From: a virus
Virus record (IMG/VR): IMGVR_UViG_3300044855_000172
Span: 1 to 30,183 of that record
Direction: 5' to 3' (one strand)
Length of the DNA: 30,183 nt
Shown here one piece after another: positions 1-10,033 of the stretch. Within the stretch, counting starts at the first letter, position 1; each line of letters begins with the position of its first letter. The notes under the pieces were generated by a model that did no database searches, was not told where the DNA came from, and saw only the letters and a list, made by a program, of their open reading frames with translations. The position numbers and the translations under genes are program-made.

Positions 1-145
1 ACGGGTAGGTCGCGGAACATGGCGGCATGATAGCCGAAGTGTGTGCAAAAAAAAATGGCTGTGGGGGGTCCGTACCATTTCACTCCAAGCCAAGGCCCTA
101 CCCGGGGCGTCAATCCTGCGCACACTCATCATCCACCCCCCGATG

Positions 146-290: not shown

Positions 291-600
291 GGGGGGCTAT
301 TTTCGCGCCCCCCGTTGCCCCCGTACTTGAAGACGTGCCATCGGGGGCTATGGGGGGCTACGGTCAGACTGCAGTAGGCAGCACTGCGAGCATAGCCCCC
401 CGTTGCCCCCCATTTTGTTGGGGGCTATGGGGGGCTACGGTCAGACTAAGACCCCCGATAGCGCAAGCATAGCCCCCCCCTGCCCCACGCAGGGCCCGGC
501 ATGATTCCGGGGGGCAGGGGGGCTATGGGGGGCATAGCCCCTCGCATTCCACCCAGTAAACGTACAGTCCCAAACCTATCGTCGAAACCATAGCCCCCCA
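291..600. repeat. GGGGGCTAT motif array with 28-bp direct repeat
   Basis: The motif GGGG(G)CTAT or its complement occurs at about 291, 343, 391, 420, 468, 517, 531 and 588, in both orientations. A perfect 28-bp direct repeat lies at 343-370 and 420-447, 77 bp apart. Each copy is followed after 15-20 bases by a similar inverted arm (CATAGCCCCCC, at 391 and 468), giving two composite units. At 509-532 three runs of six G are separated by CA and CTAT, with a GGG at 492, so a G-quadruplex is possible. Function is unknown; candidates are integrase arm sites, an origin or an operator array. Confidence 0.75.
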
Positions 601-756
601 TAACCCCCCGAGAGGGAAGCCCCCCGAAAACGCTGCCCCCCGATTCCACCCCCCGAAAGACCCCACGCTGCGCTGGGTTGTAAGTTTCGCGTCAGGAAAG
701 CCGCCGATGATGCGTGCGTGGCGCCGATGGGCGGCGCCGATAACCTGGAGAGAGAG

Positions 757-3767: not shown

Positions 3768-3805
3768 TCCCCGGGTCGAGTGTCGCGCTCCCCGGGGATT
3801 TTTTT
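3768..3805 (+). terminator. Strong rho-independent terminator
   Basis: Stem TCCCCGGG (3768-3775) / CCCGGGGA (3791-3798) with a 15-nt loop, followed directly by seven T (3799-3805). This is the best classical terminator in the window. It stops rightward transcription just where the convergent primase-helicase gene ends; the T run overlaps that gene's stop codon. Confidence 0.8.
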
Positions 3806-6128
3806 AGTCCGGCACTACGCGGCGCAGTTCGTGAACAGAAGCAGTGTGCAAGGTTTCTGCCGCATCGCGCGCTTCCGTTTTCGTCCCGCGCCAATCCGGT
3901 GAAAGCCAGATATGCCGGCGCGTGCCATAACGTTTTGTTTTCACTAAACCAACGTCGACCCACCCGCATTCAGATAGCGCGTGCAGCAGCGCCGGCACGT
4001 TCAGCCTGACATTCTGCGGCGCATGATCTTGCAGCCGATCAACGACCGCCTGCCACGGTCCACACGCGAACCCGTGGCGGAATTCCAGCGCTTTCTTTTC
4101 GATCCGCTCGACCAGCCACGATTCCGCGCCCGTGCGCGCGCTGCCGACCATGATCGTTTTGGCGTCGGTCCACGGCGGTGTTGCGGCCGGATTGAACCGG
4201 CTCACGTTACGCTGGCGCAGATACGCCGCACCGGCCTGCAGCCCACCGGCCTTGAAATAGCTCCACAGGGCAAGCGAATCCTGTTCGCGCATCCGTGGCG
4301 CATCGGTCCACGTCACCCACCAGCGTCGATCCTCCGATGGTATTGCAATGGCGTCCCGATAATTGGTCATGCCTATGACCAGCGATTGATTCACGACCGA
4401 TATGGGATGCTGGCCCTTGCGCTGCACAGTCAATAGCTCGGGCGGCGCCGCAAGAATCGGTTTCAGCCGGTTTTCCAGTGCGCGACGGTCAATCGCTTCT
4501 GACTGTCTTAGTTCATTGAAGATAATTACCTCGTTTTCAAGGAAATAGCCCCAGACCTGCTGCAGCTCCGCTGCCTCCACGCTGGTGCAATTGCTTTTCG
4601 TCTCGCCGCCAATCGCGTATAACAGCGGGGCGATCATCGAGTCCTTGCCTGCGCCAGGCACGCCGCCGATGAGCAGCGCATGATTGATTTTGACGCCGGG
4701 ATGCTGGACCTTGTATGCCATTGCATCCAGCAAATGCTGCCGCTCTGCCGGGTCCGAGATCAGCCGCTCAACGTGAGCCAGCCACGGGCCGGGGTCACCG
4801 CCCACGCAGTCCGGGCGGGCGTTACGCCACTTGTTCCCGTAGACCTGCCCGACGTGCTCGCACAGGACCGCGCGCCCAGGCGCGTAGGTGATACCCTGCA
4901 GCATCCGGCCACGCATCGCCGCGCGGTTTTCATCGTATGACGTTGCCGCCTCGACCCGGCGCGCCCCGCCTGATGCACTGGCGTGAATCGAGTGGCACCG
5001 GACGTGCCTGTACATTGCATTGAACGAGTTGCGCGTGTATTCCACGCACTGCTGGATGTCGAAATACCCGTCGTCGGGCACGACGTAGGCAAAACGCTTG
5101 TGCCACTCGCCGATCTCAAGCGCAGACGGGTCGCGCTCGTCTGCTGCGGCCTGCGCCTCGGCGTGCTCTGTGGCCTGCGGCTCGGGCTTCGCTGCAGGCT
5201 CGGGTGCTGCGGGCTTCCAGAGCGTCGTCCTCGGCGCGATCCAGGCCCGCGCGTCGGACCACCGCGTCCACCCGCTATCGGCGCAGTCCCATGCGTCGGG
5301 CTGCCCGCTGGGGTCGATGACCTTGACCTCGGCCGCCAGCGGCTGCAGGATGGCCGCCAGGCGCTGCATAGCCTCGATGCCGGCCTGATCCGCGTCGGGC
5401 CACAGGAGGATTTTCCGGCCCCGGAGGGTCTGCCAGTTCGCTCTGCTGAGAGCCTGCGCGCCCCCGGGCCAGGTCACGGCGACGTAAGGCGAGCCCGCTA
5501 GGGCTGCGGCAGCGTCTGCGGCTTTCTCGCCCTCGACCACCAGCACCGGATCCTCGGGGCGGGCCTCCAGTTCCTGCAGGCGATACAGCGGCCTCGGCAC
5601 CGGCCACTGGCCCATGCCCCAGCCGTCTGCGGAGAAAGTCCAAGGCACGATCTGCTTGCGCTCCCCGGGCGGGTCATAGCGGGCCACGTAGCCCAAGACG
5701 TCCCCGTTGCCGTCGAAGTACGTCCAGCGCGCTGACGGCGCGCCGTGGATCGGGTGGATACAGTCGCAGTCTGCGGCCTCGCTGGGGACCGGCGTGATAA
5801 CCTGCCGCTGCGGTTTCGCTGGGCGCGGCTTGGCAGGCACGCTGCTGGCGGGCGCGTCGTCGCTCAGTTCGCGGTAGGCCTCGGCCATGCTCAGTTCATG
5901 GATCGCGGCATAGAGTGAGATCAGATCCCCACCGCGCTCGCTGGTGGCGAAGTCTGCCCAGCGGCCGCTCAGGAGGTTGACGGAGCAGGAGTCGCCCTCG
6001 CCGCCGGCCAGGTCGCCGCAGACCCACTCATGGCCCCGCCTGCGACCGCCTGCGAGCCACTGGGGAACGAGGGTGTCGGCGCTGATCAGCAGGCGCTGGG
6101 CCAATGCGGTGAAGTCGAGTTTATTCAC
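3804..6128 (-). CDS. Toprim primase / SF3-type helicase
   Basis: A 774-residue replication protein that should synthesise primers and unwind DNA. Residues 30-80 resemble the zinc-binding primase N-terminus (GHEWVCGDL, then RWADFATSERGGDLISL). A Toprim domain follows with VVEGEK near 197-202 and the PDAD acidic pair near 244-247. The C-terminal half is a D5/DUF5906-type ATPase with Walker A GVPGAGKDS (about 489-497), Walker B VIIFNEL (534-540) and a sensor VIGMTNY (584-590). I chose GTG 6128 because GAGGGA sits just upstream and the methyltransferase gene stops eight bases before; a longer frame would overlap that gene. It is the last gene of the leftward operon. Confidence 0.88.
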   Translation of the reverse strand: MNKLDFTALAQRLLISADTLVPQWLAGGRRRGHEWVCGDLAGGEGDSCSVNLLSGRWADFATSERGGDLISLYAAIHELSMAEAYRELSDDAPASSVPAKPRPAKPQRQVITPVPSEAADCDCIHPIHGAPSARWTYFDGNGDVLGYVARYDPPGERKQIVPWTFSADGWGMGQWPVPRPLYRLQELEARPEDPVLVVEGEKAADAAAALAGSPYVAVTWPGGAQALSRANWQTLRGRKILLWPDADQAGIEAMQRLAAILQPLAAEVKVIDPSGQPDAWDCADSGWTRWSDARAWIAPRTTLWKPAAPEPAAKPEPQATEHAEAQAAADERDPSALEIGEWHKRFAYVVPDDGYFDIQQCVEYTRNSFNAMYRHVRCHSIHASASGGARRVEAATSYDENRAAMRGRMLQGITYAPGRAVLCEHVGQVYGNKWRNARPDCVGGDPGPWLAHVERLISDPAERQHLLDAMAYKVQHPGVKINHALLIGGVPGAGKDSMIAPLLYAIGGETKSNCTSVEAAELQQVWGYFLENEVIIFNELRQSEAIDRRALENRLKPILAAPPELLTVQRKGQHPISVVNQSLVIGMTNYRDAIAIPSEDRRWWVTWTDAPRMREQDSLALWSYFKAGGLQAGAAYLRQRNVSRFNPAATPPWTDAKTIMVGSARTGAESWLVERIEKKALEFRHGFACGPWQAVVDRLQDHAPQNVRLNVPALLHALSECGWVDVGLVKTKRYGTRRHIWLSPDWRGTKTEARDAAETLHTASVHELRRVVPD

Positions 6129-6136
6129 GGTGTCCC

Positions 6137-7075
6137 TCAAGCCAGCAGCAATGCCTGCTGCGCTGTCCGTTCTGATTGCAGGCTCAGGTACTGCGGGTTC
6201 AGTTCGCACCCGATGTACTGCCTGCCGAGTTGTTGCGCCACCTGCGCCGTCGTTCCGCTGCCCATGAATGGGTCGAGCACGATGTCTGCGAGCCTGCTGC
6301 CAGCAAGGATGCACGGCTCGATCAGTGCAGGCGGGAAGGTGGCGAAGTGTGCGCCGCTGTAGGGCTGGATGGCCACGGTCCAGACACTGCGCTTGTTGGC
6401 GCGTTCGTATTCCTTGCTGACATTTCCGGATTTGGTGGCGTGTTTCGGGTCATTGCTGTCGCCATATTTGCTTCCTCCAAACCGGATGCCCTCGCTGCTC
6501 ACTTTTGCCTGCTCTTTGATTGATTCGTGGTCAAAGTAATACCGCTCCGACTTTGACAGCAAAAAGATGTATTCATGCGCCTTTGTGCAGCGGTCGCGCA
6601 CCGACTCCGGCATCGGGTTCGGCTTGTGCCAGATGATGTCTTGGCGCAGATACCAGCCGTCGGCGCGGAGGGCAAAGGCTAACATCCACGGGATGCCGAT
6701 CAGGTCTTTGGGTTTAATTCTTGGCATCTTTCGATATGTGCCGTGGTTAAACCCCAAGGTTTTGTCTCGATCAGTGTCTTCGCCGCCGTTAACCTGTCTG
6801 CGGGCATCGTTTCTATTGTTTGCTGCGCCGTAGCTGTCCCCAATGTTCAGCCACAGCGTCCCATCGTCGGCCAGCACGTCGCGCACGCACCGGAACACTT
6901 CGACCATCGCGGCGATGTACTGCTCGGGCGTCTGCTCCAGGCCAATCTGGCCCGGGTGCCCGTAGTCCCGCAGGCCGAAGTACGGCGGCGATGTCACGCA
7001 CATCTGCGCTTTCACGCCCTGCTGCACCCAGCGCCGCATGGTGTCGCGGCAGTCACCTATTTCAATGCGGTTCAT
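6137..7075 (-). CDS. DNA amino-methyltransferase (N6-adenine or N4-cytosine)
   Basis: A 312-residue beta-class DNA methyltransferase. The catalytic motif TSPPYF is at residues 28-33 and the SAM-binding motif DPFMGSGTT at 268-276, the order typical of the class. It transfers a methyl group from SAM to an exocyclic amino group of DNA; the SPPY form is common in N4-cytosine enzymes, but N6-adenine is not excluded. ATG 7075 overlaps the nuclease stop (ATGA), which fixes the start. Its neighbours are a VRR-NUC nuclease upstream and primase-helicase downstream. Such phage enzymes usually act without a partner, for protection against host restriction; that role is inferred. Confidence 0.9.
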   Translation of the reverse strand: MNRIEIGDCRDTMRRWVQQGVKAQMCVTSPPYFGLRDYGHPGQIGLEQTPEQYIAAMVEVFRCVRDVLADDGTLWLNIGDSYGAANNRNDARRQVNGGEDTDRDKTLGFNHGTYRKMPRIKPKDLIGIPWMLAFALRADGWYLRQDIIWHKPNPMPESVRDRCTKAHEYIFLLSKSERYYFDHESIKEQAKVSSEGIRFGGSKYGDSNDPKHATKSGNVSKEYERANKRSVWTVAIQPYSGAHFATFPPALIEPCILAGSRLADIVLDPFMGSGTTAQVAQQLGRQYIGCELNPQYLSLQSERTAQQALLLA

Positions 7076-7554
7076 GCATCCCCCAGCAGCCGCTGCGCAT
7101 CGTCCACACTGCGGCAAACGCCCGCCACGCCCCCGGCCTGCCGGATGGTCTGCAGGAACTCATCCTGTCCGGGGCGCATCTTGCCGACGCGCGACTTGAC
7201 CTCGATGGCCAGCGTCCGCCCGTCTTTCAGAACGCCCATGATGTCGCTCATGCCTTTCTGCGTGTTGGCCCGGATATACCGCGTCGAGCCGTCCCTGTTG
7301 CGCTCCGCAAAGGTGCCGCTGTTCTGTCGCCAGCACTGCGCCACGCGAGGGTGGCGCTTTAGCAGCGCCATGATCGCCCGCAGGATGTCGGCCTCGCTCG
7401 GCTCCGTGCCGGGCTTCGCTGGGGCCCGCTTCTTCGGCTCCGGAGGTATCGGCAGTTCTCGCGCCGGCTTGCCGCTGAGCGCGGCGTACAGCGACTCTGT
7501 CTGCTGGTTGCGGAGCATCTGCTCGCGCAGGGTTCGGCGGCCACGTTCGGTCAT
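7072..7554 (-). CDS. VRR-NUC domain nuclease
   Basis: A 160-residue protein ending in a VRR-NUC domain, a PD-(D/E)xK nuclease fold found in phage structure-specific nucleases and in FAN1. The core reads KGMSDIMGVLKDGRTLAIEVKS, cut here into two pieces: Asp104 in GMSDI and the E-x-K pair at 118-120 in AIEVKS, with Gln130 downstream. The first 50 residues are basic and Pro-rich and probably flexible. ATG 7554 overlaps the upstream stop as ATGA; a GTG at 7563 would also be in frame. In phages such proteins are thought to resolve branched DNA. It is co-transcribed with the methyltransferase. Confidence 0.88.
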   Translation of the reverse strand: MTERGRRTLREQMLRNQQTESLYAALSGKPARELPIPPEPKKRAPAKPGTEPSEADILRAIMALLKRHPRVAQCWRQNSGTFAERNRDGSTRYIRANTQKGMSDIMGVLKDGRTLAIEVKSRVGKMRPGQDEFLQTIRQAGGVAGVCRSVDDAQRLLGDA

Positions 7555-7853
7555 GCTGCGCACCTCGCCGCGTAATCCCAGACACTCGCCACTTGCTCAT
7601 GCGCCTTCAGCTTGTGCTGCACCAGCGGTTTGACGGCCAAATTCGGCGGCGGCGGAGCACCGGCAATCACCCACACCCAGATGTGCTCATTGATGCGGCG
7701 TTTCTGCAGCCTGCCCTGCACGCGCAGCTTCCTCAGATGCTGCGCCGCAGTATCCTGCTTGCAGCCCAGATGCGCCGCCACTTGCTCACGCAGCACCGGC
7801 TGATGCGCCTGCACGAAAGCCAGAACCGCCAGTTTTTCGTCGCTCAGTTTCAT
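7551..7853 (-). CDS. Winged-helix DNA-binding protein (paralogue A)
   Basis: A 100-residue protein with an N-terminal winged helix-turn-helix: LSDEKLAVLAFVQAHQPV, then a recognition-helix region (CKQDTAAQHLRKLRVQGRL) and a wing ending in IWVWV. After a Pro-rich linker the C-terminus reads ASVWDYAARCAA. The same arrangement, including the ASVW(D/E)YA end, occurs in the gene at 8271-8546, so the two are paralogues. ATG 7853 overlaps the upstream stop. It likely binds DNA as a regulator or replication accessory factor; the target is unknown. Confidence 0.75.
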   Translation of the reverse strand: MKLSDEKLAVLAFVQAHQPVLREQVAAHLGCKQDTAAQHLRKLRVQGRLQKRRINEHIWVWVIAGAPPPPNLAVKPLVQHKLKAHEQVASVWDYAARCAA

Positions 7854-8056
7854 TCGACTGGCCTCCACGGAACCATCTTCGTTCGCAGCTGCGCCTCCGC
7901 AGCACGGATCAGAAACCGTGCCTGCGTTTCCGTCACGCCAGGCAGCGCGGCCTTGAACCACAGACGGCCGATTTCGTCGTCCGTCAGGCTGACGTGCCGG
8001 CACTTGTCCAGCAGGGCGAGCGTGCCTGCTGGGGCAACTTCCCAGTCTGAGGTCAT
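7850..8056 (-). CDS. Small phage protein, unknown function
   Basis: A 68-residue protein; ATG 8056 overlaps the preceding stop and its own TGA overlaps the next ATG. It is acidic and helical, with a segment LTDDEIGRLWFKAA followed by TETQARFLIRAAEAQLR. No known domain is recognised with confidence. It lies between the two winged-helix paralogues and may work with them, but that is only positional. Confidence 0.65.
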   Translation of the reverse strand: MTSDWEVAPAGTLALLDKCRHVSLTDDEIGRLWFKAALPGVTETQARFLIRAAEAQLRTKMVPWRPVE

Positions 8057-8274
8057 TTCTTTTCCTCCATCCAAGACCACCAAATGCGCCGCTGCACGGT
8101 TGCTGGCGCCGCCATCGCGGCCACTTGGGCGGCCTCGTCGCGGTCAAACCACGGGGTCGCAGGGCGCGACCACTTCGCGCCGTCCCACCAGCGGAGAAAC
8201 TGTCCCTTACGGGCCACGCTGGCCCGATACCAGCCCACAGCCGGCGGCGGGCCGGGGTTCCATTCAATCGTCAT
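8053..8274 (-). CDS. GPPPxxGWYxA-type Trp-rich small protein
   Basis: A 73-residue Trp-rich protein starting MTIEWNPGPPPAVGWYRAS, followed by FLRWWDGAKWS. The gene at 13011 on the other strand starts MTTWHKGPPPSIGWWPAS and continues FRWWNGKWWS, so the two are clear relatives. The pattern resembles a small Trp-rich beta domain. No function is known to me. ATG 8274 overlaps the previous stop and the stop overlaps the next ATG, keeping it inside the leftward operon. Confidence 0.7.
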   Translation of the reverse strand: MTIEWNPGPPPAVGWYRASVARKGQFLRWWDGAKWSRPATPWFDRDEAAQVAAMAAPATVQRRIWWSWMEEKK

Positions 8275-8546
8275 GGCGCAACCTCTAAACGTCGAGCATA
8301 TTCCCACACGCTAGCGGCCTGAGCTATTGCAACGTCCGCCGCCGTGTTGCGCGGCTCGGCCAGCACCCACGACGAATGACGCCCTACTCTGCTCGGCCGG
8401 ATCAAGCCGGCGCGACGCAGTGCGTCAAGGTATTGCGAGGCCGTCTCCTCACGCACATGCAGGGCGCGAGCGATGGTGCGTCTGTTGACGGGCTGCAGCC
8501 GCTCGACGGCGGCAAGCGTCTCTTGCTGGCGTGGTGTCAGGTCCAT
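8271..8546 (-). CDS. Winged-helix regulator-like protein (paralogue B), leaderless
   Basis: A 91-residue winged-helix protein: LTPRQQETLAAVERLQPVN, recognition region (VREETASQYLDALRRAGLI), wing (RVGRHSSWVLAEP) and C-terminal tail ASVWEYARRLEVAP. It is a paralogue of the protein at 7551-7853. It is the first gene of the leftward operon. No Shine-Dalgarno sequence precedes ATG 8546, and a predicted promoter would start transcription about two bases upstream, so the message may be leaderless, as for lambda cI. It faces a strong rightward promoter, so it may be a regulator of this control region; that is inference. Confidence 0.75.
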   Translation of the reverse strand: MDLTPRQQETLAAVERLQPVNRRTIARALHVREETASQYLDALRRAGLIRPSRVGRHSSWVLAEPRNTAADVAIAQAASVWEYARRLEVAP

Positions 8547-9734: not shown

Positions 9735-10033
9735 CTCAGGAAAAGCAGAAGCGACCCTACACGCGCAAGATGAAGGTCTTCGTCGTGACGGACATGCACG
9801 CCAACGAGCGGCTGGTGCGGGCCTACACCTCGGCCGACGCGCTGCGCCATGTCACGCCCACGTTCCTCGTGACGCCGGCCAATCAGGACGACATCATCAG
9901 CCTAATGGCCGCCGGCACGCCCGTGGAAACCGTTGACATCATCAGCCTGATGGTTGCAGGCACGCCCGTGGAAACCGCGGGAATTCCGGAGCAGGAACTG
10001 CCGGCGGGTGAAGCCGCGGGCCTGAGCGACTAA
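9731..10033 (+). CDS. Small protein with 15-residue tandem duplication
   Basis: A 100-residue protein; ATG 9731 overlaps the exonuclease stop (ATGA). The N-terminal half (RKMKVFVVTDMHANERLVRAY) looks like a small alpha/beta fold. Residues 54-68 and 69-83 are a tandem copy, DIISLM(A/V)AGTPVET(V/A), encoded by a 45-bp duplication. It lies between the exonuclease and the annealing protein. No known family is recognised; a partner role in recombination is possible from position only. Confidence 0.7.
   Translation: MTQEKQKRPYTRKMKVFVVTDMHANERLVRAYTSADALRHVTPTFLVTPANQDDIISLMAAGTPVETVDIISLMVAGTPVETAGIPEQELPAGEAAGLSD
9890..9979 (+). repeat. 45-bp in-frame tandem duplication
   Basis: Units 9890-9934 and 9935-9979 differ at only a few bases, mostly third codon positions, and encode the repeated DIISLM.AGTPVET segment. 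Confidence 0.9.

Follow-up and report, generated by a model that had tools for sequence, protein, structure and literature searches.

The window analysed here is one virus record of 30,183 bases. Its left end carries the first codons of terS, and an early ORF starts at about position 757. The roughly 730 bp of non-coding DNA between them separate the divergent late and early operons. They contain an array of short G-rich repeats in both orientations. The features of this region, and of the gene that we connect with it, are as follows:

20-1, minus strand: first codons of terS (MFRDLPV...); the reverse complement reads ATGTTCCGCGACCTACCCGT, the start matches terS in the related contig L009, and the late operon runs leftward
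112-253, no strand assigned: a second repeat family, GATCGTCAGCACACTGAC-like, between the array and terS; common to phages of different iteron classes and unrelated to the array
291-609, both orientations: iteron array, proposed replication origin, with half-site GGGGGGCTAT
291-300, plus strand: single iteron GGGGGGCTAT
343-362, plus strand: iteron pair inside the first copy of a 28-bp repeat
392-411, minus strand: iteron pair with a degenerate second half (GGGGGGCAAC)
420-439, plus strand: iteron pair inside the second 28-bp copy
469-488, minus strand: iteron pair, second half degenerate
509-532, plus strand: three G6 runs, amounting to one full and two partial iterons
534-543, minus strand: iteron with one mismatch (GAGGGGCTAT)
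544-587, no strand: iteron-free, AT-richer gap, proposed unwinding site
588-609, minus strand: iteron pair past the gap (CATAGCCCCCCATAACCCCCC)
679-698, plus strand: box TGTAAGTTTCGCGTCAGGA, which bounds the array on the early-gene side; the nearer relatives have it next to their arrays, with 0-4 mismatches
3804-6314, minus strand: Toprim primase-SF3 helicase with a C-terminal winged helix, proposed initiator; the actual start is probably near 6131
3807-4145, minus strand: C-terminal winged-helix domain, proposed to bind the origin (AlphaFold pLDDT 84.6; all winged-helix matches are weak)
3915-3941, minus strand: wing KTKRYGTRR, proposed specificity loop

The GGGGGCTA core occurs nine times in the whole window, and every copy lies within 292-598. 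The positions are 292, 343, 353, 420, 430, and 518 on the plus strand and 393, 470, and 591 on the minus strand. Dinucleotide shuffles of 291-610 give an expectation of 0.15 copies (maximum 3), and none of 1000 reaches nine. With shuffles of the whole window, the expectation is 0.58 (again, maximum 3). A perfect 28-bp direct repeat occupies 343-370 and 420-447, at a spacing of 77 bp; the longest exact repeat across 200 shuffles of positions 1-760 measures 15 bp. After each copy comes an inverted CATAGCCCCCC arm (391-401 and 468-478). The iterons of a pair are spaced 10 bp, about one helical turn. The G6 runs, read directly, are at 509-514, 517-522, and 527-532.

All this agrees with the initial annotation of the region. 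It had described eight or more G-rich motif copies in both orientations, the 28-bp repeat with its 77-bp spacing, an inverted arm after each copy, and three G6 runs, all in non-coding DNA. It had bounded the array at 291-600. The location stands, and the right border moves to about 609; beyond it, C6 boxes of degenerate sequence continue to about 655. Near this border, positions 553-592 are 55% AT, compared with 37% for the region. The gap also holds a box, AAACCTATC, whose counterpart in several further iteron classes reads GATAGGTTT.

Both ends of the window are matched by L008, a contig of a relative. The phage genome is therefore probably circular, with a size of about 37-38 kb, and G004 (37,654 bases) and G005 (38,277 bases) have sizes near this. 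The nearest TerL proteins belong to the records MW202483 and DSL-LC05. The next, among named phages, are of the epsilon15/phiV10 type. We take the phage to be a podovirus with an epsilon15/phiV10-type terminase. At the nucleotide level, positions 1-2400 of the window show no similarity to phage records.

The array was found again in L007-L014 and in many other relatives by terL. Relatives with TerL 95-100% identical and TerS about 84% identical or more have the same array layout in the same place, built from another unit. The shared anatomy consists of tandem pairs of 9-10 bp, an AT-richer gap, and an opposed set. Among relatives of near-identical TerL, the units are GAGGGGTACC (L032 and L040), GAGGGGACA (L020), GAGGGGACC (L026), and GAGGGGTAT (L027). 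Other relatives, mostly more distant, present GTGGCA, GTTGTCA, TGTGGACA, or ATGGGTCA, and some distant loci that we inspected showed no clear motif. L019 and L020 have TerL proteins 100% identical and terS regions 93% identical, yet their arrays differ. The iteron copies inside one genome change together, as would be expected if a single DNA-binding protein recognised them all. Sixteen arrays were compared in layout, and in most of them the 40 bp richest in AT fall in or beside the gap between the opposed iteron sets. The AT content of this gap reaches 82% (L245), against 55% in the window, whose array type is also less regular in its opposed sets than those of relatives.

We compared nine genes or domains in 15 related genomes, setting pairs with the same unit against pairs with different units. 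The helicase half of the Toprim-helicase tracks the unit with an AUC of 0.989 (identity of 95.8% in same-unit and 54.3% in different-unit pairs), and its C-terminal winged-helix region with an AUC of 0.997; the iteron classes behind these values were first assigned by eye and then counted, and, since the contigs are related to one another, each association counted cannot be treated as an independent event. Elsewhere, the AUC is 0.61 for TerL, 0.71 for TerS, 0.62 for the primase N-terminus, 0.43 for VRR-NUC, 0.33 for RecT, 0.55 for the exonuclease, and 0.62 for the early gene w7. Gene by gene, only the Toprim-helicase protein follows the unit. Along this protein, sliding identity shows that the N-terminal 300 residues are independent of the unit and that the remainder follows it.

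The Toprim-helicase gene is 3.2 kb from the array. It encodes a Toprim domain (Pfam Toprim_2, 23.1 bits, with a cut-off of 22.1) and an SF3/D5-like helicase domain (DUF5906, above its cut-off). PHROGs matches are to general DNA primase families only. By fold, the helicase matches NrS-1, SaPI5, poxvirus D5, and papillomavirus E1. The closest solved fold of the helicase half is the C-terminal region of the NrS-1 primase-polymerase (Z 24.4, rmsd 5.1, 367 residues, 14% identity), whose primase differs in type from the Toprim primase here. The SaPI5 primase-helicase matches with Z 16.6 in the helicase fold comparison (aligned 41-469). By sequence, the helicase half has no match among solved structures. 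The best fold matches of the winged-helix domain are winged helices, weak ones (Z 7.2 and below), and the P4 origin-binding domain is absent among the matches listed.

Within the winged helix, the signal narrows further. We aligned 12 helicases (11 distinct) over 439 columns, with a cross-class identity that averages 92-94% and reaches 96% at most. Between phages with GAGGGGACA and phages with GAGGGGTAT (ACA versus TAT), the perfectly separating columns are only 389, 390, 392, 394, and 396. All five are inside one stretch of eight residues, modelled as the wing of the winged helix (AlphaFold, mean pLDDT 83 and 85). Such a separation arises under just one of 462 labelings, the true one. When variable columns are drawn at random, none of 200,000 draws clusters in this way. 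These substitutions point to the wing loop as the part of the protein that reads the repeat. Because the GAGGGG core is common to both classes although the wing differs, the wing may read the variable end of the unit and another part of the protein the core.

Larger samples of helicases (one drawn from 421 matches, of which 80 were kept) show that the residues from DLGxx to the next H, near the C-terminus, vary along with the unit. The correspondence recurs across many contigs, with these pairs of wing and unit:

KTKRYGTRRH with GGGGGCTA
RCPEHPVKKH with AGGGGACA
K[AT]N[DE]L[PA]QK[KR]H with AGGGGTAT
RTKAEHSVKKH with GGGGTACC
RARGEHATKKH with GGGGACC
ASR[ATS]NPGKRH with GTTGTCA
KSRR[YFH]D[NST]KKH with TGTGGACA
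K[AT]..NG[SN]KVH with ATGGGTCA

Besides these, the helicases of L192 and L193 have the wing KTPEHPTKKH in common. L192 contains GGGGACG repeats, and in L193 there is no array in the region read.

We propose, with a probability of roughly 0.87, that the array is a replication origin, where the phage's own Toprim-helicase would bind the GGGGGGCTAT iterons, melt the gap, and prime synthesis. The covariation with the helicase half and with the wing suggests that the repeats are matched to the phage's own initiator. More precisely, the GGGGGGCTAT decamers would act as iterons, bound by the Toprim-helicase through its C-terminal winged helix, and the wing would read at least the variable bases of the unit. 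Opposed helicase rings would assemble on the two iteron sets that flank the AT-richer gap. The rings would melt this gap and then prime synthesis, so that replication would start at the array. Weighing against an origin are the modest AT content of the gap in the window, just 55%, the less regular opposed sets of its array, the distance between the array and the helicase gene, and the distant loci that showed no clear motif. The initial annotation had considered an origin or an operator array equally possible, and had regarded the lack of a nearby integrase or replication gene, together with a lack of recurrence in related phages, as evidence against its reading. The Toprim-helicase gene and the many arrays in relatives provide both, and the origin is the part that gains support. 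The operator is kept as a rival.

In other phages, packaging signals commonly lie in terS or close to it, and the array adjoins the terS start. The repeats could thus be a pac or cosB site, bound by the small terminase to mark where packaging begins. However, TerS is nearly unchanged between phages of different units, as its AUC and the pair L019 and L020 indicate. The repeats at 112-253, nearer to terS and common to the iteron classes, are a better candidate for a packaging site, and might otherwise be a late-control site. We rejected the array as a packaging site because TerS does not track the unit, and we consider this explanation very unlikely.

The position between divergent operons would also suit an operator array for a repressor or an activator. 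Small winged-helix proteins are encoded elsewhere (7551-7856 and 8271-8546), and the winged helix of the helicase might itself autoregulate at the array, possibly in a double role. Nevertheless, the small winged-helix genes (w12, w15, and w20) are either missing or vary independently of the unit; it is a helicase that tracks it, and an AT-rich gap between opposed sets is origin-like. The chance of an operator array is, in our view, slim.

Under mere linkage, recombination would carry the array and the helicase end along together although they made no functional contact. The 3' end of the helicase gene is just 3.2 kb from the array, and the gene has a mosaic structure that breaks near residue 310. 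Conversely, the genes between the array and the helicase have been reassorted without regard to the unit: w7 is 86-89% identical to other classes and about 50% within the same class. Simple linkage is therefore a poor explanation, and it does not account for the only separating residues all being in one wing. Likewise, the repeats might act as hairpin or quadruplex DNA, and the initial annotation had noted that the G6 runs could form a quadruplex. A quadruplex as the function was rejected, since some relatives have, at the corresponding place, arrays whose units (GTGGCA and GTTGTCA) lack G runs. Linkage and DNA structure together are scarcely credible.

Finally, the short direct and inverted repeats in non-coding DNA had been likened to arm-type integrase sites near an attP, which have next to no likelihood. 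No tyrosine integrase (PF00589) is encoded in the studied record or in nine relatives, which include fragments; the control was positive in all 14 of its genomes. On its left, the array is neighboured by terS/terL. The unit appears in bacterial genomes as three single chance-like matches (a Leptolyngbya MAG, Robiginitalea, and a Thiodiazotropha MAG) and never as arrays, and it changes with the helicase C-terminus.

The proposed origin and its initiator resemble several known systems. In the P4 alpha protein, a Toprim primase and a helicase are joined to a winged helix, through which the protein binds the repeats of its origin (PMC4234260). Here too, one protein has a Toprim-type primase, a helicase, and a winged helix, with binding of the repeats predicted. 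Unlike P4, the system belongs to a full-size podovirus, and its repeats differ from those of P4 and vary widely among close relatives. The SaPI Rep protein reads iterons with its C-terminal domain (PMC7581432), and in PICI origins an AT-rich region lies between two sets of iterons (PMC6092414). In many relatives of our phage, the iteron sets also flank an AT-rich region, and the fold match with SaPI5 adds to this likeness. In contrast, SaPI origins are directly downstream of rep, while here the array is 3 kb away, beside terS. The SaPI5 primase is of the archaeo-eukaryotic type and not Toprim. By analogy, the array and the helicase may work like the P4 alpha and SaPI Rep origins; this would be a likeness of working, and not necessarily of descent.

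In PLE, a Vibrio cholerae satellite, the initiator RepA varies together with the origin, and replication requires a cognate pair (PMC8263062). As in PLE, the DNA-binding part covaries with the origin and the rest of the initiator is conserved. The PLE initiator, though, is of the RepA_N family, and two specificity groups are described there, compared with at least eight well-supported ones here.

An iteron origin is of a known kind, and the unusual part of the finding is the apparent wing-iteron code. We hold the balance to be about even for a near one-to-one code with at least eight well-supported specificities, rapidly swapped among otherwise near-identical phages; the swapping might serve to evade relatives or satellites that cross-replicate, or nucleases directed at the origin. 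The parallel to initiator-origin swapping in PLE suggests that diversifying selection may act on origin specificity in full phages as well. For a large, mostly uncultured group of podoviruses, a likely replication origin and its initiator can now be named. In addition, these natural sequence pairs, where a handful of wing residues appears to switch the DNA specificity, make a recognition code of helicase initiators directly testable.

Some other observations concern the surroundings of the array and the relatives. In G004, the GC skew extremum falls no more than 0.5 kb from the array; in G005, the distance is about 5 kb. The contig G003 (95,467 bases; L123 and L124) has one terL and one helicase match of the studied phage type, and no tyrosine integrase; it may be a chimeric assembly or something else. 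An extra ORF is present directly before terS in L062, and one in L015 is annotated as a homing endonuclease. Shortly upstream of terS, the window (50-75, minus strand) and many relatives show a GGACCCCCC run and, after it, an A/T-rich stretch similar to CACAAATTTTTT. The nearest named records, DSL-LC05 and MW202483, present repeats upstream of terS as well, with TGACCCACTGGGT at 3600-4120 of L016, and TTGGTAGT and GTTTACAT at 9800-10020 and 10430-10600 of L015.
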